Positions 1-13,720 of a stretch of DNA of 64,000 nt are shown one piece after another. The stretch lies in contig JABFVM010000008.1 in the NCBI GenBank assembly GCA_013362785.1, positions 1-64,000 of the forward strand, read 5' to 3'. The position numbers and the translations under genes are program-made. Below the pieces are notes generated by a model. That model was not told the DNA's origin. It searched no databases and worked only from the letters and a program-made list of their open reading frames with translations. How positions within the stretch are numbered: position 1 is the first letter of the stretch; every line of letters starts with the position of its first letter. This stretch comes from Streptomyces sp. (GTDB lineage Bacteria; Actinomycetota; Actinomycetes; Streptomycetales; Streptomycetaceae).

Positions 1-2
1 AC

Positions 3-65
3 GGGGCGCGTGCGCAGATCTGGAGCTGCACGGGCGGGGCCAATCAGAAGTGGCGTCTGCAGTAG
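3..65 (+). CDS. C-terminal end of a protein with a ricin-B-type lectin domain (5' truncated by window edge)
   Basis: Frame 3 reads GARAQIWSCTGGANQKWRLQ*, with the QIW...NQKW pattern of ricin-B/CBM13 repeats. Confidence 0.7.
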   Translation, partial: GARAQIWSCTGGANQKWRLQ

Positions 66-310
66 GGCGGATGCGGATGCCTGCGGCGGCCTGTTGCTGT
101 GCGGTGGGGGCGTGCGTAGCGCCTGCGGTTTGTGGGTGGGTCGGGGCCGCGCCGGGGGGTGTCCGTCCTCGGATCGGCGGTCACCTTAGGCCAAGAGCTG
201 CCGCGTGTTGACGCCGACCACTGCGGGCGGACACCCCCCGGCACGTCCCCTTCCCGCCGTACGCGAGTGCGGGCGGGTGGGGGTACGCGCCGACACCTTT
301 CAACGCTGGT

Positions 311-430
311 CCATGTTTTTCAGCCCGTCCGGCGTTTGAGGACGAGGCCGTTCAGGCCGATGGGGGTCCAGGGGGCGGAGCCCCCTGGCGGGGTCGAAGG
401 GGCGGAGCCCCTGGGGATGGGACGGGTAGG
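311..430. repeat. Dispersed intergenic repeat with hairpins (copy 1)
   Basis: TTTTTCAGCCCGTCCGGCGTTTGAGGACGAGGCC...CCAGGGGGCGGAGCCCCCTGG; a related copy in inverted orientation lies at about 45222-45297. Confidence 0.7.
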
Positions 431-472
431 GGCGGCGGGGGCGAGGGACTGCACGCCGTGCCAGTGGGGCGG

Positions 473-2077
473 CTACTCCGCCGGTGTCACCCCGGCCCGC
501 AGCAGGCCGTACGTGTAGGCGTCCTCCAGGGCCTGCCAGGACGCGGCGATGACGTTCTCGGCGACGCCCACCGTGGACCACTCGCCCGCACCGTCGGACG
601 TGGAGATCAGGACGCGGGTCGTGGACTGGGTGCCGTGGACGCCCTCCAGGATGCGGACCTTGTAGTCGACGAGGTCCAGCTTGGCGAGCTGGGGGTAGAT
701 CTTTTCCAGGGCGACCCGGAGGGCACGGTCGAGGGCGTTGACGGGGCCGTTGCCCTCGGCCGTGGCCACGATGCGCTCGCCCTTGGCGAAGAGCTTGACC
801 GTGGCCTCGTTGGCGTGGCTGCCATCGGGGCGGTCCTCGACGATCGCGCGCCAGGACTCGACCTGGAAGTAGCTGAGGGGCTTGCCCTCGACCTCGGCGC
901 GCAGGAGGAGTTCGAAGCTCGCGTCGGCCGCCTCGTAGGTGTAGCCCTTGAGCTCGCGTTCCTTGACGCGTTCCACCACCCGGCCGACCAGCTCGCGGTC
1001 GCCACCGAGGTCGATGCCGAGCTCCTTGCCCTTGAGCTCGACGGAGGCGCGGCCGGCCATGTCGGAGACCAGCATCCGCATGGTGTTGCCGACCTGCTCG
1101 GGGTCGATGTGCTGGTACAGGTCCGGGTCGACCTTGATCGCGGAGGCGTGCAGGCCGGCCTTGTGGGCGAAGGCGGAGACGCCGACGTAGGGCTGGTGGG
1201 TGGAGGGGGTGAGGTTGACGACCTCGGCGATGGCGTGCGAGATGCGGGTCATCTCGCGCAGGTGGCCCTCGGGGAGGACCTTCTTGCCGTACTTCAGTTC
1301 CAGGGCGGCGACCACCGGGAACAGGTTGGCGTTGCCGACGCGCTCGCCGTAGCCGTTGGCCGTGCACTGGACGTGGGTCGCGCCCGCGTCGACGGCGGCG
1401 AGGGTGTTGGCCACCGCGCAGCCGGTGTCGTCCTGGGCGTGGATGCCGAGCCGGGCGCCGGTGTCGGCGAGGACGGTGGAGACGACGGCCTGGACCTGGG
1501 CGGGGAGCATGCCGCCGTTGGTGTCGCAGAGGATCACCACGTCGGCGCCGGCCTCCGACGCCGTACGGACGACGGACTTCGCGTACTCGGGGTTGGCGCG
1601 GTAGCCGTCGAAGAAGTGCTCGCAGTCGACGAAGACCCGGCGACCCTGCTCACGGAGGTAAGAGACCGTGTCGCGGACCATTTCCAGGTTCTCGTCCAGG
1701 GTGGTGCGCAGGGCGAGCTCGACGTGGCGGTCGTGGGACTTGGCGACCAGGGTGATCACCGGGGCGCCGGACGCCAGCAGTGCGTTGACCTGCGGGTCCT
1801 CGCTCGCCTTGCCGCCCGCGCGGCGGGTCGCGCCGAAGGCGACCAGCTGGGCGTGCTTGAAGTCGATCTCCTGCTGGGCGCGCGCGAAGAACTCGGTGTC
1901 CCGCGGGTTGGCACCGGGCCAGCCGCCCTCGATGAAGCCCACGCCGAACTCGTCCAGATGCCGGGCGATGGCCAGCTTGTCGGCGACGGTGAGGTTGATG
2001 CCCTCCCGCTGGGCTCCGTCGCGCAGGGTGGTGTCGAAGACGTGGAACGAGTCGTCGAGCTCGCTGGTTGGCGTCAT
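473..2077 (-). CDS. cimA: Citramalate synthase (CimA / LeuA-like)
   Basis: 534 aa; FDTTLRDGAQREGINLTVADKLAIARHLDEFGVGFIEGGWPGANP, VILCDTNGGMLP, HAQDDTGCAVANTLAAVDAG. Confidence 0.93.
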   Translation of the reverse strand: MTPTSELDDSFHVFDTTLRDGAQREGINLTVADKLAIARHLDEFGVGFIEGGWPGANPRDTEFFARAQQEIDFKHAQLVAFGATRRAGGKASEDPQVNALLASGAPVITLVAKSHDRHVELALRTTLDENLEMVRDTVSYLREQGRRVFVDCEHFFDGYRANPEYAKSVVRTASEAGADVVILCDTNGGMLPAQVQAVVSTVLADTGARLGIHAQDDTGCAVANTLAAVDAGATHVQCTANGYGERVGNANLFPVVAALELKYGKKVLPEGHLREMTRISHAIAEVVNLTPSTHQPYVGVSAFAHKAGLHASAIKVDPDLYQHIDPEQVGNTMRMLVSDMAGRASVELKGKELGIDLGGDRELVGRVVERVKERELKGYTYEAADASFELLLRAEVEGKPLSYFQVESWRAIVEDRPDGSHANEATVKLFAKGERIVATAEGNGPVNALDRALRVALEKIYPQLAKLDLVDYKVRILEGVHGTQSTTRVLISTSDGAGEWSTVGVAENVIAASWQALEDAYTYGLLRAGVTPAE

Positions 2078-2187
2078 GGTCGTAAGGCTCCTGTATTGGA
2101 TCTCGGTCTACCGGAATGACCGGCTCCACCGCCCCCACCTATGGTCCCTCACGCACTCCGCCCGGCTGCGGGTGGGCCGGGAAACAG

Positions 2188-2213
2188 AAAAACCTCTCGC
2201 GGGTGCGAGAGGT
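2188..2213 (-). terminator. Candidate attenuator terminator in the cimA leader
   Basis: On the minus strand: ACCTCTCGC-ACCC-GCGAGAGGT followed by a T-run, about 110 nt upstream of the cimA ATG. Confidence 0.75.
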
Positions 2214-2267
2214 CTGCGCGCGGGTCGAGGACGACGGTGTCCACCCGTACCTGGTCGTACGTGGTGG

Positions 2268-2303
2268 TCACTGCGGACCGGCGCGCCTGCTGCCAATAAT
2301 CAT
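2268..2303 (-). CDS. Candidate cimA leader peptide MIIGSRRAGPQ
   Basis: ATG ATT ATT GGC AGC AGG CGC GCC GGT CCG CAG TGA upstream of the cimA terminator hairpin; tandem Ile codons. Confidence 0.55.
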   Translation of the reverse strand: MIIGSRRAGPQ

Positions 2304-2390
2304 GGCGAACGAGAGCACGGGGGCAGTCTGGCACAAGTCGCCCCCGCGCTCACCGTCCGTCTCAGGATGCGAGCACTGTGGTGATCGGCG

Positions 2391-3680
2391 TCAGCGCATG
2401 TGGCGGACGAAGCCGTCGTTCACGCCGTTGGTGTCGCCGGCGACGAGCTGGGACGAGGAACTGCCGAGGCCGATGCGCTTCGCCCCCTCGCTCACCGACT
2501 CCAGCCATACGTAGGTGTCCGTCGCCGGGCCGCCGGTGACCGACTCGCTGACCAGGCGGGTGGAGCCGGTGCGCAGGTCGCGCAGGTAGATGTTGGCCGG
2601 GCCGAGCGTTCCGTCGGGCAGCTTCGGGGTGGCCTCGTAGCCCACGTAGCGGCCGTCGGCGCTGAGTACGGGCCGGTCGGGCATGCTCTCGCCGTCGGGG
2701 CCGGCGTCGATCCGTCGGGTGACGTCCTTGCGCAGGTCGCGGACGTAGATGTCGGACGCGTCCGGGCCGCCGCCGGGGAGCAGGTCCTCGTCCCAGTTCT
2801 GGAAGGCGACGGTGCGGCCGTCCGCGGAGAGCGTGGCGGGCATCGCGTAGCGCGGTGCCGGGGAGCCGTCGGCCTTGACGTTGACCCGCTCCTCCGTTCC
2901 GGTGCGGCGGTCGTGCACCCAGGTGATGCCGTTGGAGCTGCGCGGCACCAGCTGGGTGTAGAGCACGTACCGGCCGTCGGCGCTCACGTCCTGGAAGAGC
3001 GCCGGGTTGTCGGGGCGGTTCGTGTTGCTGATCCGCTTCGTCTTGCCGGTGCTGCGGTCGAAGACGTACACGGCTCCGAAGAGGTCGCGGGCGCCCTCCT
3101 CCATCCGGGTGGCCTTGGCGTTGAAGGTGATGTAGCGGGCGTTCGCGGACATGTCGGCACCGGCCGCGTAGGCGGAGCCGCCGTCGAAGGCGACGCTGAT
3201 CCGCTTCGTGGTGCCGGTGCGGCGGTCGTGCAGATAGATGTCGGCGGCGCCCGCGTCCGCGGGCGGGGTGTCCCAGGGGACCAGGTTGCGTGCGGTCGAG
3301 CTGAACAGGACGTACCGCCCGTCGGCGCTGATGGCCTGCACGGACGACCCTTGATCGGCCTGTGCGCCGGCCGAGCTGACGCTGACCCGCTCGACGCCCC
3401 CGGTGCGCAGGTCGCGCACGAAGACGTCCCGCTGGCCGTTGGTGTCGCCGGGCACCAGGTTGGAGGCGTCGGCCGTGAACGCCGCGAAGCGGCCGTCGGC
3501 GCTGAGCTGCGGCGCGAACGAGTTGCCGTCGCCCTGCTCCCCCGTCGCCGACACGGTGACCCGCTCGGTCGACGGGACGCGGGGCGCGGCCCCCGCCGAC
3601 GTCCCGGTGGTCAGTGTCGCCGTGGCGGCGGCGAGCGCGACGGCGATGGCGAGCGCGCGGACGCGCCTGTTGCTGTGCAT
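2391..3680 (-). CDS. Secreted TolB/PD40-type beta-propeller protein
   Basis: Repeated SADGRxVxF...GDTNGxxDVFVRDLRTG blades; signal peptide MHSNRRVRALAIAVALAAATATLTTGTSAGA starting at 3680, inside the longer ORF. Confidence 0.8.
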   Translation of the reverse strand: MHSNRRVRALAIAVALAAATATLTTGTSAGAAPRVPSTERVTVSATGEQGDGNSFAPQLSADGRFAAFTADASNLVPGDTNGQRDVFVRDLRTGGVERVSVSSAGAQADQGSSVQAISADGRYVLFSSTARNLVPWDTPPADAGAADIYLHDRRTGTTKRISVAFDGGSAYAAGADMSANARYITFNAKATRMEEGARDLFGAVYVFDRSTGKTKRISNTNRPDNPALFQDVSADGRYVLYTQLVPRSSNGITWVHDRRTGTEERVNVKADGSPAPRYAMPATLSADGRTVAFQNWDEDLLPGGGPDASDIYVRDLRKDVTRRIDAGPDGESMPDRPVLSADGRYVGYEATPKLPDGTLGPANIYLRDLRTGSTRLVSESVTGGPATDTYVWLESVSEGAKRIGLGSSSSQLVAGDTNGVNDGFVRHMR

Positions 3681-3810
3681 GGTGGTTCCCCCGTTGATGC
3701 CGGTCGGTGTCAGAGGTGGTCGGTCGTTCCCCTCTTGGTCCTCCCCCGAGGCAAACGCACCATGCGCTACAGGGTCAATCCGTAAAATTGCGTACAACCA
3801 GGGCGTGCGC

Positions 3811-4410
3811 TCAGGAGTCCGCGTGGAGGCTGTCGTCCAGGAACTCCCGTACATGGCGCAGAACTTGCGCTCGGTCGGTGCCGCGCAGGCCGATGGCCAC
3901 GTGGATCGAGAAGCCGTCGAGGAGCGCTCGCAGCCGGGCGGCGAAGCGGTCGGGGTCGACCGTCCGGAACTCGCCGCGTGACACTCCCTCCGCCAGCAGT
4001 GCCACCAGGTCGCGGTGCCAGGCGCCCTCGATCGCGGCCTGGCGTTCCCTGGCGTCGTCGTCGGCGTTCTGCGAGCGGTTCCAGACCTCCAGCCACAGGG
4101 TCCAGTGCGGGTCGCGATGACCGTCGGGGACGTACAGGTCGACGAATGCGTCGAGCCGCTCGCGGGCGGACGCGGTGCGCGTCAGCAGCCGTCCGCGCTC
4201 GGCGCCGAGCCGGCCCTCGCTCCACTCCAGGGTGCGCAGCAGCAGCTCGTCCTTGGAGTGGAAGTAGTAGAGGAGATGGCCGCTGCTCATACCGACCGCA
4301 CGGCCGAGCGCCGCCATGGTGAGCTTCTCCAGACCGCGCTCGGCGATCATCTCCATGGCGGCGGCGAGGACCTCGTCACGGGGCGGCGCCTGCCTGCGCC
4401 CACCGGCCAT
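3811..4410 (-). CDS. TetR-family transcriptional regulator
   Basis: N-terminal HTH: VLAAAMEMIAERGLEKLTMAALGRAVGMSSGHLLYYFHSKDELL. Confidence 0.88.
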   Translation of the reverse strand: MAGGRRQAPPRDEVLAAAMEMIAERGLEKLTMAALGRAVGMSSGHLLYYFHSKDELLLRTLEWSEGRLGAERGRLLTRTASARERLDAFVDLYVPDGHRDPHWTLWLEVWNRSQNADDDARERQAAIEGAWHRDLVALLAEGVSRGEFRTVDPDRFAARLRALLDGFSIHVAIGLRGTDRAQVLRHVREFLDDSLHADS

Positions 4411-4419
4411 CTGCGGCTC

Positions 4420-5463
4420 CTAGATCTTCGGCTGCTGCTGTGTGATGCAGTGGATGCCTCCACCACCCGCGAAGATCGTACGGGCGTCGACGAGGGTCAC
4501 CGTCCGCTCGGGGAAGAGGCGGCGGAAGATGCCGGCCGCGAGTTCGTCGCGCGGGTCGTCGAAGGCGCAGAGCACCACGCCGCCGTTGCAGAGGTAGTGG
4601 TTGATGTAGGAGTAGTCGGCCCAGTGGCCGTCCGCCTCCAGAACGGTGGGCGCCGGGATCTCGACGACCTCCAGGCTGCGGCCCCGCGCGTCCGTGCTCG
4701 ACCTCAGCAGGCCGACGATCTCCTTGGTCACCTCGTGGTCGGGGTGCGCCGGGTCCGGCTGCACATGGGCCACGACCACGCCGGGGCGGGCGAAGGCGGC
4801 GACGATGTCGACATGGCCGAGGGTGCCGAAACCGTTCGGGGGATAGTCACCGGTGAGGCCGCGCGGCAGCCAGATCGCCTTGCGGGTGCCGAGCATGGCG
4901 TGGATCTCGGCCTCCACCTCCTCCCGCGTCCAGTGCGGGTTGCGCTCCGGGCCGAGCTGGACGGTCTCCGTGAGCAGGACCGTGCCCTCTCCGTCCACAT
5001 GGATCGCTCCGCCTTCGTTGACGAGCTTCGAGGCATACGTCGTGGTCGAGCCCGCGAGGTCGGAGACATGCGCGGCGATCTTCGCGTCGTGCTCCCAGCG
5101 GGCCCAGTCCTGGGCGCCCCAGCCGTTGAACGTCCAGTCGACGGCGGCGAGTCCACCGGCGCCGCCGGTCAGGAAGGTCGGGCCGATGTCCCGCATCCAG
5201 GCGTCGTCCAGGTCGCGTTCGACGGTGTCGACGTCCGGGCCGAGCAGCCGCCGCGCCTCCTGCGACTGTCCAGGACCGCACACCACCGTCACCGGCTCGA
5301 AGCGGCGGACCGCGCGGGCGACCGAGGCCCAGGCCCTGCGGGAGGCGGCGAGGTCGGCCGGATCCTCGAAGGTCGCGTTCGGCCCCGGCCAGGCCATCCA
5401 GGTGCGCTCGTGCGGGGCCCATTCGGCGGGCATACGGAAGCCGTCGGCGGCGGGCGTGCTCAT
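4420..5463 (-). CDS. Agmatine deiminase family protein
   Basis: MPAEWAPHERTWMAWPGP, WMRDIGPTFL, NEGGAIHVDGEGT, GGGGIHCITQQQP; start MSTPAADGF at 5463. Confidence 0.9.
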   Translation of the reverse strand: MSTPAADGFRMPAEWAPHERTWMAWPGPNATFEDPADLAASRRAWASVARAVRRFEPVTVVCGPGQSQEARRLLGPDVDTVERDLDDAWMRDIGPTFLTGGAGGLAAVDWTFNGWGAQDWARWEHDAKIAAHVSDLAGSTTTYASKLVNEGGAIHVDGEGTVLLTETVQLGPERNPHWTREEVEAEIHAMLGTRKAIWLPRGLTGDYPPNGFGTLGHVDIVAAFARPGVVVAHVQPDPAHPDHEVTKEIVGLLRSSTDARGRSLEVVEIPAPTVLEADGHWADYSYINHYLCNGGVVLCAFDDPRDELAAGIFRRLFPERTVTLVDARTIFAGGGGIHCITQQQPKI

Positions 5464-5474
5464 GCGGTCGTCCT

Positions 5475-7148
5475 TCACAGGAAGTAGAGGCGGTTGAGGG
5501 AGACCGAGTCCGCGGGCTCGGAGCGCAGTGGCTCTCCGTCCAGCGTCACCAGGCCCGTGTGCTGGTCCACATCCACCGCTCCGGTACGGGAGTTGAGGCG
5601 CAGATCGGCCGGCCCGATACCGCGCGTGCCGCGCACCGCGACCCTGCGGCGCCGGGTCGGCATGGTGTCGTGGCCCTGGTCGACGGCGGCTCCGGCGACG
5701 AAGGCGACCGAGAGGTCTGCGGGGGTGGCGCCGTACGCCCCGAACTGCGGCCCCAGGACGAGGGGTTCGCAGGTGTCGGTCGCGGCGTTGGGGTCGCCGA
5801 CGACGCCGTAAGCGGGGAAGCCCGCCTTCAGCACCAGCTGCGGCTTGGCGCCGAAGTACTCCGGCCGCCACAGCACGACGTCGGCGAGCTTGCCGACCTC
5901 CAGCGACCCCACCTCGTGGGCGAGGCCGTGCGCGATGGCCGGGTTGATGGTCAGCTTGGCCATGTAGCGCAGGACGCGCTCGTTGTCGTGGCCGGCGTCC
6001 GGGGCGCCGAACTCGGCCTTCATCTTCCCGGCCATCGCGAAGGTACGGCGCACGGTCTCGCCGGCCCGGCCCATGCCCTGCGCGTCGGACGAGGTGATGC
6101 CGATCGCGCCCAGGTCGTGCAGCACGTCCTCGGCGCCCATGGTCCCGGCGCGGATGCGGTCGCGGGCCATGGCGGCGTCGCCGGGCAGGTCGGTCTTCAG
6201 GTCGTGGACGGAGACGATCATGCCGTAGTGCTCGGCGACGGCGTCCCGGCCGAACGGCAGGGTGGGGTTGGTGGAGGAGCCGATGACGTTCGGGACGCCG
6301 GCCATCTTCAGGACGTTCGGTACATGTCCGCCGCCGCAGCCCTCTATGTGGAAGGCGTGGATGGTGCGGCCCTCCAGGACACGCAGTGTGTCCTCGACGG
6401 ACAGGCACTCGTTCAGCCCGTCGCTGTGCAGGGCGACCTGGACGTCGTACTCCTCGGCGACCCGCAGCGCCGTGTCCAGGGCGCGGGTGTGGGCGCCCAT
6501 GTCCTCGTGCACCTTGAAGCCACTCGCTCCGCCCTCGGCCAGCGCCTCGACCAGGGGCGCCTCATGGGAGGACGAACCCCGGCCCAGGAAGCCGATGTTG
6601 ACGGGCCAGGCGTCGAAGGCGTTGAAGGCGTGCCGAAGTGCCCAGGGCGAGTTGACCCCGACGCCCCAGACCGGCCCGAACTCCTGGCCGATGATCGTGG
6701 TCACCCCGGACGCGAGCGAGGCCTCCATGACGCGCGGCGACAGCAGATGCACATGCGTGTCGACGGCTCCGGCGGTGGCGATGAGCCCCTCGCCGGACAC
6801 GATGGACGTGCCCGTGCCGACCACGACGTCGACCCCGTCGAGGGTGTCGGGGTTCCCGGCCCGCCCGATCGAGCAGATCCGCCCCTCCCTGATCCCGATC
6901 GAGACCTTCCGGATGCCCAGTGCCGCGTCGATCACGACGACGTTGCTGATCACGACGTCACAGGTCTCCCGGACGGCCGCTGCCTTGAGATGCAGCCCGT
7001 CGCGGGCGGTCTTGCCGAACCCGGCGAGGAACTCGTCGCCGTAGCGCTGGGAGTCGGACTCGACGCGGATGGTGAGACCGGAGTCGCCGAGCCGGACGCG
7101 GTCACCGGCGCGGGGGCCGTGGGTGGCGGCGTATTCGTACGGGTTCAC
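5475..7148 (-). CDS. ureC: Urease alpha-subunit-like amidohydrolase (divergent flap)
   Basis: GTG start NPYEYAATHGPRAGDRVRLGDSGL; DTHVHLL, GFKVHEDMG, HSDGLNE, HIEGCGGGH, SSDAQGMGR; overlaps the upstream gene by 4 nt. Confidence 0.9.
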   Translation of the reverse strand: MNPYEYAATHGPRAGDRVRLGDSGLTIRVESDSQRYGDEFLAGFGKTARDGLHLKAAAVRETCDVVISNVVVIDAALGIRKVSIGIREGRICSIGRAGNPDTLDGVDVVVGTGTSIVSGEGLIATAGAVDTHVHLLSPRVMEASLASGVTTIIGQEFGPVWGVGVNSPWALRHAFNAFDAWPVNIGFLGRGSSSHEAPLVEALAEGGASGFKVHEDMGAHTRALDTALRVAEEYDVQVALHSDGLNECLSVEDTLRVLEGRTIHAFHIEGCGGGHVPNVLKMAGVPNVIGSSTNPTLPFGRDAVAEHYGMIVSVHDLKTDLPGDAAMARDRIRAGTMGAEDVLHDLGAIGITSSDAQGMGRAGETVRRTFAMAGKMKAEFGAPDAGHDNERVLRYMAKLTINPAIAHGLAHEVGSLEVGKLADVVLWRPEYFGAKPQLVLKAGFPAYGVVGDPNAATDTCEPLVLGPQFGAYGATPADLSVAFVAGAAVDQGHDTMPTRRRRVAVRGTRGIGPADLRLNSRTGAVDVDQHTGLVTLDGEPLRSEPADSVSLNRLYFL

Positions 7149-7825
7149 AGTTCGGCTCCCAGGTATCCGCAGGCTGCGGCCCTGCGCAGGGCCTCTTCCT
7201 TCGCCCCCGGCGCGTCCAGCGCCCCGTCGACGAGACCGGCGAACCCGATGGCGATCCGGTCGCCCCCGATGGGCGCGAGCCCGACCTCGACGCTCTCCCC
7301 CGGCCCGAACCGCGCGGAGGACCCGGCGGGGACGGCGAGCCGCATGCCGTAGGCCGCGCCCCGGTCGAAGTGGAGGCGCGGGTTGGCCTCGAAGAAGTGG
7401 AAGTGGGAGGTGACGGAGACGGGGACGGTCGCGGTGTTCGTCACCGTCAGGCGTACGACCGCCTCGGGCTCGGCGTGCGCGGGCCCCGGCAGCAGCGCAC
7501 CCGGCGCCCGGTCGCCCAGTCCCCCGCCGATCGGGTCGCTCACCACCGCGAGCCGGGAACCGTCGTCGAAGACGGCCTCGACGTGCACCTCGGTGACGAC
7601 GTCCGCGACACCCGGCAGCACGTCGTCGGGGCCGAGCACCGAGCGGGCGCGTTCGACGGCCTCGGCGAGCCTGGCCCCGTCCCGGGCGGCCTCGCACACG
7701 GTGTCCGCGACGAGCGCCGTCGCCTCCGGCACGTTCAGCCTCAGCCCGCGGGCCCTGCGCGCCCGGGCCAGCTCTGCGGCTCCGAAGAGCAGCAGCCGGT
7801 CACGTTCCGTGGGGGTCAGTCTCAC
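7145..7825 (-). CDS. ureAB: Fused urease gamma/beta subunit
   Basis: N-terminal MRLTPTERDRLLLFGAAELARARRARGLRLNVPEA (gamma); C-terminal VTNTATVPVSVTSHFHFFEANPRLHFDR (beta). Confidence 0.9.
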   Translation of the reverse strand: MRLTPTERDRLLLFGAAELARARRARGLRLNVPEATALVADTVCEAARDGARLAEAVERARSVLGPDDVLPGVADVVTEVHVEAVFDDGSRLAVVSDPIGGGLGDRAPGALLPGPAHAEPEAVVRLTVTNTATVPVSVTSHFHFFEANPRLHFDRGAAYGMRLAVPAGSSARFGPGESVEVGLAPIGGDRIAIGFAGLVDGALDAPGAKEEALRRAAACGYLGAEL

Positions 7826-7853
7826 TACGCGACACCTCCTTGCCTGACTCGAC

Positions 7854-7872
7854 TTTAGAGCATCACTCTAAA
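7854..7872. promoter_or_regulatory. Perfect inverted repeat operator candidate in the divergent ureAB/permease region
   Basis: TTTAGAG-CATCA-CTCTAAA; a degenerate second copy is at 7922-7939. Confidence 0.6.
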
Positions 7873-7954
7873 CATGAAATCCCACCGACCGAAAGGTTGA
7901 CAGCAAACCTGCGGCACCTCAGATTGAACGTCACTCAAACCGAGGGAGACACTC

Positions 7955-9421
7955 ATGCCAAGGGAACAGCGCGGAGTCGACACCATCCCCGAGGGGGAAC
8001 GGACGAGCGGCCCACGGGACCTCGTCTCGATCCTGCTCGGGTCGAACCTCTGCCTGGGGGTGATCGTCTTCGGCTGGCTGCCCCCGTCCTTCGGCCTGGA
8101 CTGGTGGGCCTCGGTGAGCTCGATCGTGGTCGGCACCCTGGTCGGCACCGCCCTCACCGCCCCGCTGGCCCTGATCTCCCTGCGCACGGCGACGAACCTG
8201 TCCACGTCCTCCGGCGCCCAGTTCGGTGTCCGGGGCCGCCTGGTCGGCTCGGTCGTCGGCCTGCTGCTGGCGCTGGGCTACTCCGCGCTGACCGTGTGGA
8301 TCGGCGGCGATGTGATGGTGGGCGTGCTGGGCCGCCTGTTCGACGTCCCGGCGAACGACCTGTCGTACGGCGTGGTCTACGGGCTTCTGGCCGCGGCGAC
8401 CGTCGCGGGCGCGGTGTACGGCTACCGGGTGCTGCTCGCCATGTCCCGTGTCCTCGCGATCGGCATGACGGCCCTGCTGGTCCTCGGCGTGATCGCCTAC
8501 GCCCCGCACTTCACGACGGCCGCGCTGCCCGAGGCGGGCGGCTATCTGCTGGGCGGCTTCTGGCCGACGTGGCTCCTGGCGACGGTGGCGGCGGGTCTGT
8601 CGGGCCCGATCGCCTTCATCACCCTCCTCGGCGACTACACCCGCTACATCTCCCCGGCCCGCCACTCCTCCCGCCGGGTCCTGCACGCGACCTGGCTCGG
8701 CCTGATCCTGGGCCTGCTGGTCCCCCAGCTCTTCGGCACCTTCACGGCGTACGCGGCGCGGGCCGCCCTCGACTACGCCGGACCGCTCGTCTCCGCGTCC
8801 CCGACCTGGTACCTGGTCCCGCTCCTGCTGGCCGCCTCCACGGGCTCGGTCGGCAACGCGGGTCTGATGCTCTACTCCATGGGCCTCGACCTGGACGCGA
8901 TCCTGCCGCGCGCGTCCCGGGCGACGGCCACCTACGCGGTCGCGGTGGTCGCGACGGCCTGTGTGTTCGTCGGCCACTACTACTCGTCGGCCCAGGACGC
9001 GATGACGTCCTTCGTGCTCCTGCTGACCGCCATCGGCACCCCTTGGGCGGTCATCACCCTGATCGGCTTCGCACGATGCCGTGGCGTGTACGACGCGGAG
9101 GCCCTGCAGGTCTTCAACCGCCGGGCGCGGGGCGGGATCTACTGGTACCGGGCCGGCTGGCACATCCCGGCGACCGTGTCCTGGGCGCTGGGCGCGGCGG
9201 TGGGGGTGCTGGCCGTGTCCCTGCCGTCGTACGAGGGGCCGCTGCTGTCACTGACCGGCGGCGTGGACTGCAGCTTCCTGCTGTCGGGGGTGGTGGGCGG
9301 CCTCGGCTACCTGGCCCTGACCGGGCGGGCCGCTCGCACTCGCACGCCGGTCGCCACGGGTACCGAGGGGTCCGAGCCGGCCGAGGGGGCCGATGCTCAG
9401 CCCGCCTCGGTGATCTCGTAG
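7955..9421 (+). CDS. NCS1-family purine/cytosine-type permease
   Basis: 488 aa polytopic; STSSGAQFGVRGRLVGS, GLSGPIAFITLLGDYTRYI. Confidence 0.85.
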   Translation: MPREQRGVDTIPEGERTSGPRDLVSILLGSNLCLGVIVFGWLPPSFGLDWWASVSSIVVGTLVGTALTAPLALISLRTATNLSTSSGAQFGVRGRLVGSVVGLLLALGYSALTVWIGGDVMVGVLGRLFDVPANDLSYGVVYGLLAAATVAGAVYGYRVLLAMSRVLAIGMTALLVLGVIAYAPHFTTAALPEAGGYLLGGFWPTWLLATVAAGLSGPIAFITLLGDYTRYISPARHSSRRVLHATWLGLILGLLVPQLFGTFTAYAARAALDYAGPLVSASPTWYLVPLLLAASTGSVGNAGLMLYSMGLDLDAILPRASRATATYAVAVVATACVFVGHYYSSAQDAMTSFVLLLTAIGTPWAVITLIGFARCRGVYDAEALQVFNRRARGGIYWYRAGWHIPATVSWALGAAVGVLAVSLPSYEGPLLSLTGGVDCSFLLSGVVGGLGYLALTGRAARTRTPVATGTEGSEPAEGADAQPASVIS

Positions 9422-9444
9422 GCGGTTCGTGGGCATCGTGGAAC

Positions 9445-9488
9445 GGGCGAAGCCGCCCCGGACGGTGCTGTCCGGCGCGGCTTCGCCC
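9445..9488. terminator. Bidirectional terminator between permease and ilvE
   Basis: GGGCGAAGCCGCcCCGGAC...GTCCGGcGCGGCTTCGCCC. Confidence 0.7.
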
Positions 9489-9558
9489 TGAAGTCCTGGG
9501 ACTTGGGTCCTGGGTGCTGGGACTTGTGTGCTGGGCCCTGGGCCCTCGGTCCCCGTGG

Positions 9559-10647
9559 TCAGCCCAGCTTGTGCATCCAGCCGTGCTTGTCCTCGGCCGT
9601 CCCCCGCTGGATGTCCAGCAGCGCCTGCCGCAGCTTCAGCGTGACCTCGCCGGGCTGCCCGCCGCTCTGCTGCCACTCGGCGTCCGTGCGCTTGACCGTG
9701 CCGACCGGCGTGATGACCGCGGCCGTACCGCAGGCGAAGACCTCGGTGAGGGTGCCGTTCTCGGAGTCGCGCTGCCACTGGTCGACGGAGACGCGGCCCT
9801 CCTCGGACTCGTAGCCGAGGTCACGGGCGACCGAGAGGAGGGAGTCACGGGTGACGCCCTCCAGGATGGAGCCGGTGAGGGACGGGGTGATGATCTTGTC
9901 GCCGTACACGAAGTACAGGTTCATGCCGCCGAGCTCCTCGACCCACTTGCGCTCGACCGCGTCGAGGTAGCAGACCTGGGCGCAGCCCTTCGCGGCGGCC
10001 TCGGCCTGGGCCAGCAGGGAGGCGGCGTAGTTGCCACCGGTCTTGGCGTCGCCCATGCCGCCGGGGACGGCGCGGACGTGGTCCTCGGAGACCCAGATGG
10101 AGACCGGCTTGACGCCGCCCGGGAAGTAGGCGCCGGCCGGGGAGGCGATGACGATGAACAGGTACTCGCTCGCGGGCTTCACGCCCAGGCCGACCTCGGT
10201 GGCGATCATGAAGGGGCGCAGGTAGAGGGACTCCTCACCGCCGTGCGCCGGCACCCAGTCCGCGTCCTGCCCGACCAGCGCGTCGCACGCCTCGATGAAC
10301 GTCTCGACCGGCAGCTCCGGCATGCCGAGCCGGCGGGCCGACGCCTGGAAGCGCTTGGCGTTCTTCTCGGGACGGAAGGAGGCGACGGACCCGTCGGGCT
10401 GGCGGTAGGCCTTCAGCCCCTCGAAGATCTCCTGCGCGTAGTGCAGGACCATGGTGGCCGGGTCGAGGGAGAGCGGCGCGTACGGCACGAGCTCGCCGTC
10501 GTGCCAGCCGCGGCCCTCGGTCCACTTGATCGTCACCATGTGGTCGGTGAAGTGGCGGCCGAACCCCGGGTTGGCCAGTATCGCCTCGCGCTCGGCGGCG
10601 GAGAGCGGGCTGGCGGAGGGCTTGAGCTCGATCGTGGGCGTCGTCAT
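9559..10647 (-). CDS. ilvE: Branched-chain amino acid aminotransferase
   Basis: [56 protein letters not shown]. Confidence 0.95.
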
Positions 10648-10733
10648 GAGTAGATGTCCTTCACCGGTTTTGATTGTGGCGGGCCGCGCTCACGCCAGTA
10701 CTGCCAGTGGCCAGTGCTAGGACGTCCGAGCAT
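10644..10733 (-). CDS. Candidate 29-aa upstream ORF overlapping the ilvE start
   Basis: [29 protein letters not shown]; its stop overlaps the ilvE ATG (ATGA). Confidence 0.35.
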
Positions 10734-10843
10734 TCCCTGATTCCGCGGCTCCGCGTTCGATTATCGCAAGCGGAAGCCGTGGAAGAAATCGGCCTGATCG
10801 GCGTGATCCGGCGTGTATCGCGACCCAAGGGCTGATGGTGTCA

Positions 10844-10873
10844 CCCGGCGGCGGACATGGGGAAGCCGCCGGG
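10844..10873 (-). terminator. Hairpin downstream of leuB
   Basis: CCCGGCGGC ... GCCGCCGGG 9-bp stem 3' of leuB. Confidence 0.5.
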
Positions 10874-10921
10874 TACGGAGTGACCCGACGGCTTCGAAGG
10901 TTTTCGAGCGTGCGCGGCGGG

Positions 10922-11965
10922 TCAGCCGGCTACTCGTACGGCCAGCGCGTCGCCGATCTCCGACGTCGAGCGGGCGGGCTTGCCGGTGCGCTCCGCGAGG
11001 TCGGTCGAGACGGCCTCGTCGATCCGGGCGGCCTCGGCGTCGTAGCCGAGGTGGCGCAGGAGCAGGGCGACGGACAGGACCGTGGCGGTCGGGTCGGCCT
11101 TGCCCTGGCCGGCGATGTCGGGCGCGGAACCGTGGACCGGCTCGAACATCGACGGGAAGTCGCCGCTCGGGTTGATGTTTCCGCTCGCCGCGACGCCGAT
11201 GCCGCCGGAGACGGCCGCGGCGAGGTCGGTGATGATGTCGCCGAAGAGGTTGTCGGTGACGATGACGTCGAAGCGCTCGGGCTGGGTGACCAGGTAGATG
11301 GTCGCGGCGTCGACGTGCATGTACTCGGTGGTGACGTCGGGGAACTCCTCGGCCACCTTGTTGAAGATGTTGGTCCACAGGTGACCGGCGAAAGTCAGCA
11401 CGTTGTTCTTGTGGATCAGCGCCAGCCTCTTGCGCGGGCGGGCCTGCGCACGGGTGAAGGCGTCCCGGACGACGCGCTCGACACCGAAGGCCGTGTTCAC
11501 GGAGACCTCGGTGGCGACCTCGTGCTCGGTGCCCTTGCGGATGGTGCCGCCGTTGCCGGTGTACGGGCCCTCGGTGCCCTCGCGGACGACGATGAAGTCG
11601 ATCTCGGGCTGGCCGGCGAGCGGGGTGGCGACACCCGGGAGCAGCTTCGACGGACGCAGGTTGACGTGGTGGTCGAAGAGGAAGCGGAGCTTCAGCAGGA
11701 AGCCGCGCTCCAGGACACCGGACGGCACCGACGGGTCGCCGATGGCGCCGAGCAGAATCGCGTCGTGCTTCCTCAGCGCGTCGGCGTCGGCGTCGGTGAG
11801 GGTCTCACCGGTGGCGTGGTAGCGCCGGGCGCCGAAGTCGTACTCCTTGGTCTCCAGCTTCACATCCTGCGGGAGGACGGCGGAGAGGACCTTGAGCCCT
11901 TCGGCCACGACTTCCTGCCCGATGCCGTCACCGGGAATCACTGCGAGATTGAGGCTGCGAGACAT
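10922..11965 (-). CDS. leuB: 3-isopropylmalate dehydrogenase
   Basis: [69 protein letters not shown]. Confidence 0.95.
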
Positions 11966-12118
11966 GTCGGCACCCTACTCCTCGTCCCATGGAATGACAT
12001 GCGCTGTCCGCCATGCGGACGTGTGGGCAGGGGGCGGCGCTTGCGCGTCGACCGCCGTTCACCCGTATGAGGGGCGGGTGTTGGCCTCCGGTGCGCCCCC
12101 GCTGGGAACTTCTCCCCC

Positions 12119-13720
12119 ATGACTGTGTCTTCCAGGGGGACACCCCCCGGACCCCCCGTCCCCGACTTCGGCATCCCGCCCCAGCTCGCCCGCCGGATGA
12201 GCATGGCGGAGCAGCACGAGTACCTGCGCACCAAGCTGACCCGGCGCCGCACGCTGGTGACCGCGGGCGCGGTGGCGGGCGGGCTGCTGACGGGCTGCTC
12301 GGGGCCGGAGAAGTCGGCGGGCACGGCCGGCGCGCGACCCTCCCCGTCCGTCTCCACCAAGGTGCCGGGCTCCGCCGTCGCCCCCTTCGGCCGCCATCTC
12401 GCCTTCGGCGCCGACCCGAAGTCGCAGATGCGGATCTCCTGGCAGGTACCGGCCGCGGTGAAGAAGCCGTTCGTCCGGATCGGCCTGCGGCCCGACGACC
12501 TGAGCCGCAGGATCGACGCCGAGATCCGCGACCTGTACACCCCCGGACTGCAGGGCATCCGCGCGGCGCTGGAGCAGTACTACGTCCACGCGGCACTGGA
12601 CTCCCTGCGCCCCGGCACGACGTACTACTACGGCGTGGGCCATGACGGCTTCGACCCGGCGGCCCCCGCCAACCGCGCCACGATCGCCTCCTTCCGCACC
12701 GCTCCCGCGAGCCCGGAGACCTTCACCTTCACAGCCTTCGGAGACCAGGGTGTCAGCGAGGCGGCCGCCACCAACGACAAACTCCTGCTGGGCCAGAACC
12801 CCGCCTTCCACCTCCACGCCGGCGACATCTGCTACGCCAACGTCAGGGGCTCGGGCGAGAAGTCGGACGGCTACGACCCCGGCTTCTGGGACGGTTACCT
12901 CAAGCAGACCGAGTCGGTGGCCAAGTCGGTGCCGTGGATGGTGACGACCGGCAACCACGACATGGAGGCCTGGTACTCGCCGGACGGCTACGGCGGCCAG
13001 CTGGCCCGCTGGTCCCTGCCGGACAGCGGCTTCGACGCCCGCAAGGCCCCGGGCGTGTACTCCTTCACCTACGGCAACGTCGCCTTCGTGGCGCTGGACG
13101 CGAACGACGTGTCGTACGAGATCCCCGCCAACCAGGGGCACACGGGCGGCCGTCAGACCAAGTGGCTGGACGAGCGGCTCGGTGAACTGCGGGCGGCGAA
13201 GGGCGTCGACTTCATCGTCGTCTTCTTCCACCACTGCGCCTACTCGACGTCCTCGCACGCGTCCGACGGGGGTGTCCGGGCCGAGTGGGTGCCGCTGTTC
13301 GCCCGGCACCAGGTGGACCTGGTGATCAACGGGCACAACCACGTCTACGAGCGGACGGACGCCATCAAGAACGGCGAGGTCGGCGCGCAGGTGCCCATCG
13401 GCGCCTCGACGGACCCGACGCGGGACGGCATCGTGTACGTCACGGCGGGCGGGGGCGGCAAGGAGCTGTACGGCTTCCCCTCGGGCGTCGAGGAGAGCTA
13501 CGAGGGGCATGTCACCGAACGGGAGTCCGTCGACACGTTCAAGTGGACCAAGTCACGGAACACCAAGGCGGAGAGCGTGGAGTGGTCGCGGGTGCGCTAT
13601 CGGGGCTTCTCGTTCCTCAGCGTGGAGGCGGAGGGCGGCGCGAAGCCCCGGCTGAAGGTGTCGGCACTGGCACAGGACGGCAAGCGCATCGACCACTTCG
13701 AGGTGCGGCGCAGCAGCTGA
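12119..13720 (+). CDS. Purple acid phosphatase-like metallophosphoesterase, Tat/lipoprotein signal
   Basis: RRRTLVTAGAVAGGLLTGCSG; GDQG, HAGDICYAN, TTGNHDME, FFHHCAY, NGHNHVYER. Confidence 0.9.
   Translation: MTVSSRGTPPGPPVPDFGIPPQLARRMSMAEQHEYLRTKLTRRRTLVTAGAVAGGLLTGCSGPEKSAGTAGARPSPSVSTKVPGSAVAPFGRHLAFGADPKSQMRISWQVPAAVKKPFVRIGLRPDDLSRRIDAEIRDLYTPGLQGIRAALEQYYVHAALDSLRPGTTYYYGVGHDGFDPAAPANRATIASFRTAPASPETFTFTAFGDQGVSEAAATNDKLLLGQNPAFHLHAGDICYANVRGSGEKSDGYDPGFWDGYLKQTESVAKSVPWMVTTGNHDMEAWYSPDGYGGQLARWSLPDSGFDARKAPGVYSFTYGNVAFVALDANDVSYEIPANQGHTGGRQTKWLDERLGELRAAKGVDFIVVFFHHCAYSTSSHASDGGVRAEWVPLFARHQVDLVINGHNHVYERTDAIKNGEVGAQVPIGASTDPTRDGIVYVTAGGGGKELYGFPSGVEESYEGHVTERESVDTFKWTKSRNTKAESVEWSRVRYRGFSFLSVEAEGGAKPRLKVSALAQDGKRIDHFEVRRSS

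Follow-up and report, generated by a model that had tools for sequence, protein, structure and literature searches.

A flap-cysteine-less urease-like enzyme of Streptomyces and its possible role in a guanidino or ureido degradation module

Urease is a textbook example of dependence on dedicated nickel chaperones. What, then, is the role of a urease-like gene pair that stands beside a deiminase gene with no urease accessory gene in sight? Such a pair is found in the stretch analysed here, the first 64,000 nucleotides of contig JABFVM010000008.1 of a Streptomyces sp. (assembly GCA_013362785.1; hereafter the window), where it encodes UreAB2, a fusion of the gamma and beta subunits, and UreC2, a protein like the alpha subunit (together UreABC2). 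The original prediction described ureAB, a ureC-like gene, an agmatine deiminase gene and a TetR gene running in one direction with an NCS1 permease gene divergent from them, and all five genes were found where it had placed them. Our comparisons support the view that UreABC2 forms a lineage separate from urease and that it is independent of UreDFG, as far as sequences can tell. With more reserve, we consider it probable that the locus is a two-step module for guanidino or ureido degradation, in which the deiminase acts first and UreABC2 second without UreDFG, and for which we infer both substrate and metal.

Active site and lineage of UreC2

The window proteins exceed the cut-offs of PF00547, PF00699, PF00449 and PF01979, and the gamma, beta and alpha subunit domains are all present. 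When 107 distinct UreC2 sequences were aligned and numbered after S. pasteurii UreC, the metal ligands H137, H139, K220 (the position of the carbamylated lysine of urease), H249, H275 and D363 proved invariant in all 107, as did H222, H323 and R339. The flap cysteine, Cys322, is replaced in every one of them, by Val in 102 and by Ala in five. It is present in all reference ureases; three rows with Val that were first counted among these are flap-Cys-less relatives (L134, L142 and L151). UreC2 also has a shortened active-site loop, with about four residues missing around 172-175, Trp at 166, and Gly in place of Ala366 and of Thr252. Its score against TIGR01792, the equivalog model of the urease alpha subunit, is 628.9 bits, below the cut-off of 680. 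The loop and flap changes would be expected to enlarge the pocket and make room for a substituent R on the substrate.

In a larger tree of UreC types, a single split with support of 100/99 divides all flap-Cys-less from all Cys-flap UreC. The flap-Cys-less side comprises the Streptomyces type of the window, a 67%-identical type on plasmids of Streptomycetaceae, a type of other actinobacterial families (G310 and G316) and the type of the Streptomyces genomes G067, G042 and G530. The tree is unrooted, and gain and loss of the flap Cys are not separable in it. The Streptomyces type was counted from the match list in 75 of 121 sampled Streptomyces genomes at 78-100% identity, with a gap below it down to canonical UreC at only about 50%; seven Streptomyces genomes carry two copies.

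UreC2 and the urease accessory genes

The original prediction had noted that ureD, ureE, ureF and ureG are missing. This holds for the window and fails for the organism, since the source genome (G000; 626 contigs, 80% complete) carries a canonical cluster of ureA, ureB, ureC, ureF, ureG and ureD on contig C218, whose UreD, UreF and UreG all exceed their cut-offs. A second ureABC-FGD locus, for which the prediction had proposed to look, therefore exists; the absence of accessory genes is local only, and the argument from their absence in the window is rejected. The window UreC2 and the canonical UreC of the same genome are 48% identical. As a side observation on canonical loci, canonical ureC is matched twice within positions 561759-569016 of contig C140 in G118; the two matches score equally, point in opposite directions and are separated by about 4 kb.

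The canonical cluster lends substance to the simplest alternative, that UreABC2 is a second ordinary nickel urease matured in trans by the canonical UreDFG, with the deiminase either incidental or feeding it urea. The conservation of the metal ligands and subunits is as this alternative would have it, G000 encodes UreDFG, as do most Streptomyces genomes that have UreC2, and one earlier paper gives SCO5525-5526 simply as a urea-utilising ureABC (PMC3293853). We nevertheless regard it as unlikely, though not far-fetched, because the flap Cys is lost clade-wide, because UreC2 scores below the urease equivalog cut-off, and because UreC2 is kept in the UreF-less genomes G091, G533, G085 and G109, which have no UreD or UreG above cut-off where these were searched.

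UreF had no match in 38 of 395 genomes of the genus, and what follows comes from 20 of these 38. Nine of the 20 have no UreC of any kind. UreC2 is the sole UreC in G091 and G533, while G085 has an intact UreC2 together with a canonical ureC into which about 1.8 kb has been inserted; at the latter locus (L161) ureF and ureG were not found and ureD is a remnant. G109, a 91% complete genome outside the 20, is also UreF-less and has UreC2 only. UreF-less genomes with a UreC at 46-48% identity were considered as counter-examples and rejected as such: the sole UreC of G067, G042 and G530 is of another flap-Cys-less type, and the rest, five fragmented assemblies (G016, G027, G045, G099 and G524), were set aside because their Cys-flap UreC is located at a contig end or close to one. 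Among the checkable UreF-less genomes, that is the 20 and G109, every intact contig-internal UreC is flap-Cys-less. UreD was not found in G091, G109, G042 or G067, and G085 has only a fragment below the cut-off; UreG above cut-off is absent from G091, G109, G085 and G067 (G533 and G530 were outside both searches). The ratio of nonsynonymous to synonymous substitution rates (dN/dS) of UreC2 is 0.11-0.17 between the window and UreF-less genomes, with similar values for a flanking gene, 0.125 between the UreF-less G091 and G085, and 0.07-0.17 across the UreC2 comparisons. Judged from these ratios, UreC2 is still under purifying selection in UreF-less genomes.

A second actinobacterial class, that of G310, gives a parallel comparison. 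From its 299 genomes we fetched 22 flap-Cys-less and eight Cys-flap loci, partly from related genomes and so not fully independent, and searched them by tblastn with Streptomyces proteins. UreF, UreG or UreD lay within 1.5 kb of none of the 22 flap-Cys-less loci versus seven of the eight Cys-flap loci (Fisher p = 4e-6), and UreF was found nowhere in the G310 assembly, which is 96% complete. The deiminase lies within the same distance in four of the 22 (L200, L204, L215 and L216), and gene orders differ among the deiminase-bearing loci of this class. At L236 the deiminase gene stands about 0.8 kb away and is divergent.

The deiminase and the proposed two-step route

Deiminases of the family of the window deiminase convert guanidino to ureido groups. 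The window protein matches PF04371 with 366 bits and keeps catalytic-type motifs (Cys, His, Asp and Glu) that align with those of solved agmatine deiminases. In the proposed first step it would turn R-NH-C(=NH)NH2 into R-NH-CO-NH2 and ammonia. UreABC2 may take this product, as is suggested by the pairing of the two enzymes, and would hydrolyse the substituted urea to R-NH2, CO2 and ammonia. In urease, a metal-bound hydroxide attacks the urea carbonyl, and UreABC2, on the same scaffold, would share with urease the binuclear metal site, the carbamylated lysine and the catalytic histidine. An intact metal site and the apparent dispensability of UreDFG are read most simply as self-assembly of the kind seen in other amidohydrolases, and UreABC2 would load its metals without nickel chaperones, as those enzymes or the iron urease of Helicobacter mustelae would.

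The substrate could in principle be agmatine, with a true agmatine deiminase in the first step and UreABC2 replacing AguB in the conversion of N-carbamoylputrescine to putrescine. Among PDB entries the deiminase indeed matches agmatine deiminases best, and a ureido compound is a deiminase product. However, the deiminase scores 312.9 bits against TIGR03380, the agmatine deiminase equivalog model, below its cut-off of 381.8, and the deiminase partners in G310 and G875 likewise fall below. The C-terminal loop before the SYIN motif, measured by eye, is also far shorter than in the solved agmatine deiminases, at about 15 residues in the window protein and about 18 in the G310 partner against 32-33. 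An agmatine route is therefore quite unlikely in our estimation. It is improbable that the deiminase instead makes urea from free guanidine and that UreABC2 is a chaperone-free urease. Such a route would account for a guanidino deiminase paired with a urease fold, and an iron urease of H. mustelae, the existence of which is cited in PMC3816311, offers a precedent for it. A guanidine riboswitch near the locus was considered and rejected, as positions 1-13000 of the window gave no Rfam match at the gathering threshold; the loop remodelling suggests a larger substrate, and relatives of UreABC2 occur without a deiminase in a nonribosomal peptide synthetase (NRPS) cluster and in an operon with a thiamine pyrophosphate (TPP) enzyme and an aldehyde dehydrogenase. 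Finally, a catalytically dead UreABC2 with some other role, for example structural or regulatory, might be read into the lost flap Cys and the remodelled loop, but the invariance of metal ligands and catalytic residues in 107 sequences and the low dN/dS values make this highly improbable.

Several points weigh against the two-step module that we favour. The UreC2 substitutions are placed by alignment and not by a solved structure. The UreDFG proteins of the window's own genome might still act on UreABC2, and the survey of UreF-less genomes covered only 20 of 38. Weak UreG-like matches, all far below the cut-off, occur in G091, G085 and G016, and these may be HypB-type GTPases able to supply nickel. 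In G009 (L240) the Cys-flap UreC is intact, ureF carries a frameshift, ureG breaks off after residue 103 and ureD was not found; either a decaying canonical cluster can leave UreC whole for a while, or the assembly is in error here. Lastly, few loci of the G310 class adjoin a deiminase gene, and other substrates or partners must therefore exist in the clade.

The inference of a dedicated guanidino or ureido module rather than a housekeeping urease is supported, and more strongly than the window alone could show, by the distinct clade, the remodelled active site, the recurrent deiminase and the retention of UreC2 in UreF-less genomes. The accessory-gene argument used for it is weak, UreDFG being encoded elsewhere in G000, and the permease is optional.

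Flap-Cys-less UreABC occurs in further settings. Plasmids of Embleya, Streptomyces and Kitasatospora (L143, L144, L145 and L146) carry the 67%-identical UreAB-UreC pair, which in three annotated records lies inside an NRPS gene cluster; no accessory gene is annotated near it in these three records. The cluster also encodes a nitroreductase-like oxidase domain, a stand-alone condensation domain, a kinase-like protein, a 2-oxoglutarate-Fe(II) oxygenase and a protein weakly like B12-binding radical S-adenosylmethionine proteins. In G067 (L186, 2249-12898) a UreAB-UreC-like pair heads an operon with two major facilitator superfamily transporters, a TPP enzyme, a protein of the aminobutyraldehyde dehydrogenase subfamily and an RraA-like protein, with a PucR-type regulator opposite. 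In two genera belonging to a single family, the gene next after flap-Cys-less UreC encodes a glycerate kinase (L231, 4522-5964; L233, 8397-9497). In G933 (L239, 3615-10296), deiminase, UreAB and UreC genes are followed by those for a metal transporter of the Nramp type and an MgtE_N/CBS protein, a slight pointer, from this one locus, away from nickel and possibly to Mn or Fe; a TetR gene of the same BetI-type C-terminal family as in the window is divergent from them.

A broader and more tentative proposal takes in all of these types. Flap-Cys-less UreABC may be a lineage beside all true ureases, with chaperone-free assembly of two metals, probably iron, manganese or zinc, that acts as a hydrolase of N-substituted ureas in several settings (catabolism coupled to the deiminase, the NRPS cluster and the TPP-enzyme/aldehyde-dehydrogenase operon), and it could preserve a state ancestral to nickel urease and its chaperone dependence; we consider this possible but doubtful. 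Were these readings true, a lineage sister to urease that keeps its metal ligands and persists where the chaperones are lost would be a direct natural comparison for urease's need of them, and many database "ureases" of Streptomyces would be misnamed enzymes of guanidino and ureido metabolism. There would also be a new type of enzyme acting on substituted ureas, and a way into the NRPS cluster.

Locus layout, regulation and known relatives

The features of the locus are collected in Table 1. The GTG start codon of UreC2 overlaps the UreAB2 stop as GTGA. The order of TetR, deiminase, UreC2 and UreAB2 genes is the same in all 80 named loci, which are best matches and hence close relatives of the window locus; because the order is kept, these are conserved genes and not chance open reading frames. 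They are flanked by genes for a citramalate synthase-like, a branched-chain aminotransferase-like and a leuB-like protein, names that we presume from sequence recognition and not from a family search.

Table 1. Positions of the genes and probable regulatory sites of the UreABC2 locus in the window.
Feature	Position	Strand	Basis or location
TetR-family regulator with BetI-type C-terminal domain	3811-4410	-	PF00440 + PF13977
Agmatine-deiminase-like guanidino deiminase (PAD_porph)	4420-5463	-	PF04371
UreC2, urease-alpha-like amidohydrolase without flap cysteine	5475-7148	-	family scans, alignment, trees
UreAB2, fused urease gamma/beta subunits	7145-7825	-	family scans
NCS1-family permease, optional member	7955-9421	+	PF02133
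Perfect palindrome TTTAGAG-CATCA-CTCTAAA, probable TetR operator 1	7854-7872		upstream of UreAB2
Inverted-repeat-like site TTGAACGTCACTCAA, probable operator 2	7924-7938		near NCS1 start

The palindrome has its sole match in the 64 kb, at up to two mismatches, at this position, and none was found in 100 shuffles. It is conserved, with a score of at least 15 of 18 in 73 of 76 loci (shuffled maximum 11), and the second site scores at least 12 of 15 in 61 of 76 (shuffled maximum 10). By binding to these two conserved operators, the BetI-type TetR probably keeps both divergent units repressed.

The permease scores 337.8 bits against PF02133, above the cut-off, and 42.2 bits against the nucleobase symporter model TIGR00800, below the cut-off of 353.1. 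An NCS1 gene is present in 57 of the 80 named loci, some of the others lying at a contig edge, and in some loci IlvE directly adjoins UreAB; we therefore rejected NCS1 as a defining part, and a permease that is optional is no sound guide to the substrate. At L113, a copy outside the leu/ilv locus, an ATP-binding cassette (ABC) transporter of the Opp/Dpp type, checked with Pfam, replaces NCS1 upstream of UreAB (4276-6941), with an AsnC-type regulator nearby. The same type of transporter perhaps also stands for NCS1 at L058, L074, L083 and L087, likewise copies outside the leu/ilv locus. The Opp/Dpp-type family also includes nickel importers.

In the literature searched, which mostly excluded subscription journals, there was no description of a separate accessory-free urease-like family, of a urease in NRPS clusters or of a urease-type ureidohydrolase. 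Counterparts of the window genes have been described in part. The second cluster of S. coelicolor, like that of S. avermitilis, consists of ure(AB)C alone (2008, PMC2492869), and SCO5525-5526 are listed as urea-utilising genes unaffected by ArgR (2012, PMC3293853). The published description suggests that SCO5525-SCO5526 of Streptomyces coelicolor are orthologs of the window genes; in the accessible portions of both papers they are treated as urease, and these portions contain neither a test of function nor a mention of the flap change. Fused-AB ureases with the gene order ureEF(AB)CGD are described in PMC2492869 from Bradyrhizobium BTAi1 and P. syringae B728a. The Methylobacterium locus L179 is of this kind and has the UreAB fusion in common with UreABC2, but unlike it keeps the flap Cys and the accessory genes. 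L179 and its neighbours L133 and L138 have Gly at 366 and form the first branch among the Cys-flap ureases in the tree.

The window deiminase shares the PF04371 family and the catalytic motifs with the agmatine deiminase AguA (Arabidopsis 1vkp, Enterococcus 2jer) and differs from it in the TIGR03380 score and the short C-terminal loop given above. The nickel urease UreABC (EC 3.5.1.5; S. pasteurii 1ie7, Yersinia 4z42) is alike in sequence fold, in its three subunit domains, in the metal ligands, in the position of the carbamylated lysine and in His222, His323 and Arg339. UreABC2 differs from it by Val in place of Cys322, the loop shortened around 172-175, Trp166, Gly in place of Ala366 and Thr252, the absence of adjoining accessory genes and a score under the TIGR01792 cut-off. 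The iron urease UreA2B2 of H. mustelae (3QGA/3QGK) is a second urease-like enzyme beside that organism's nickel urease and is not known to depend on the nickel accessory system. UreA2B2 acts on urea, and its likeness to UreABC2 would be one of analogy only.

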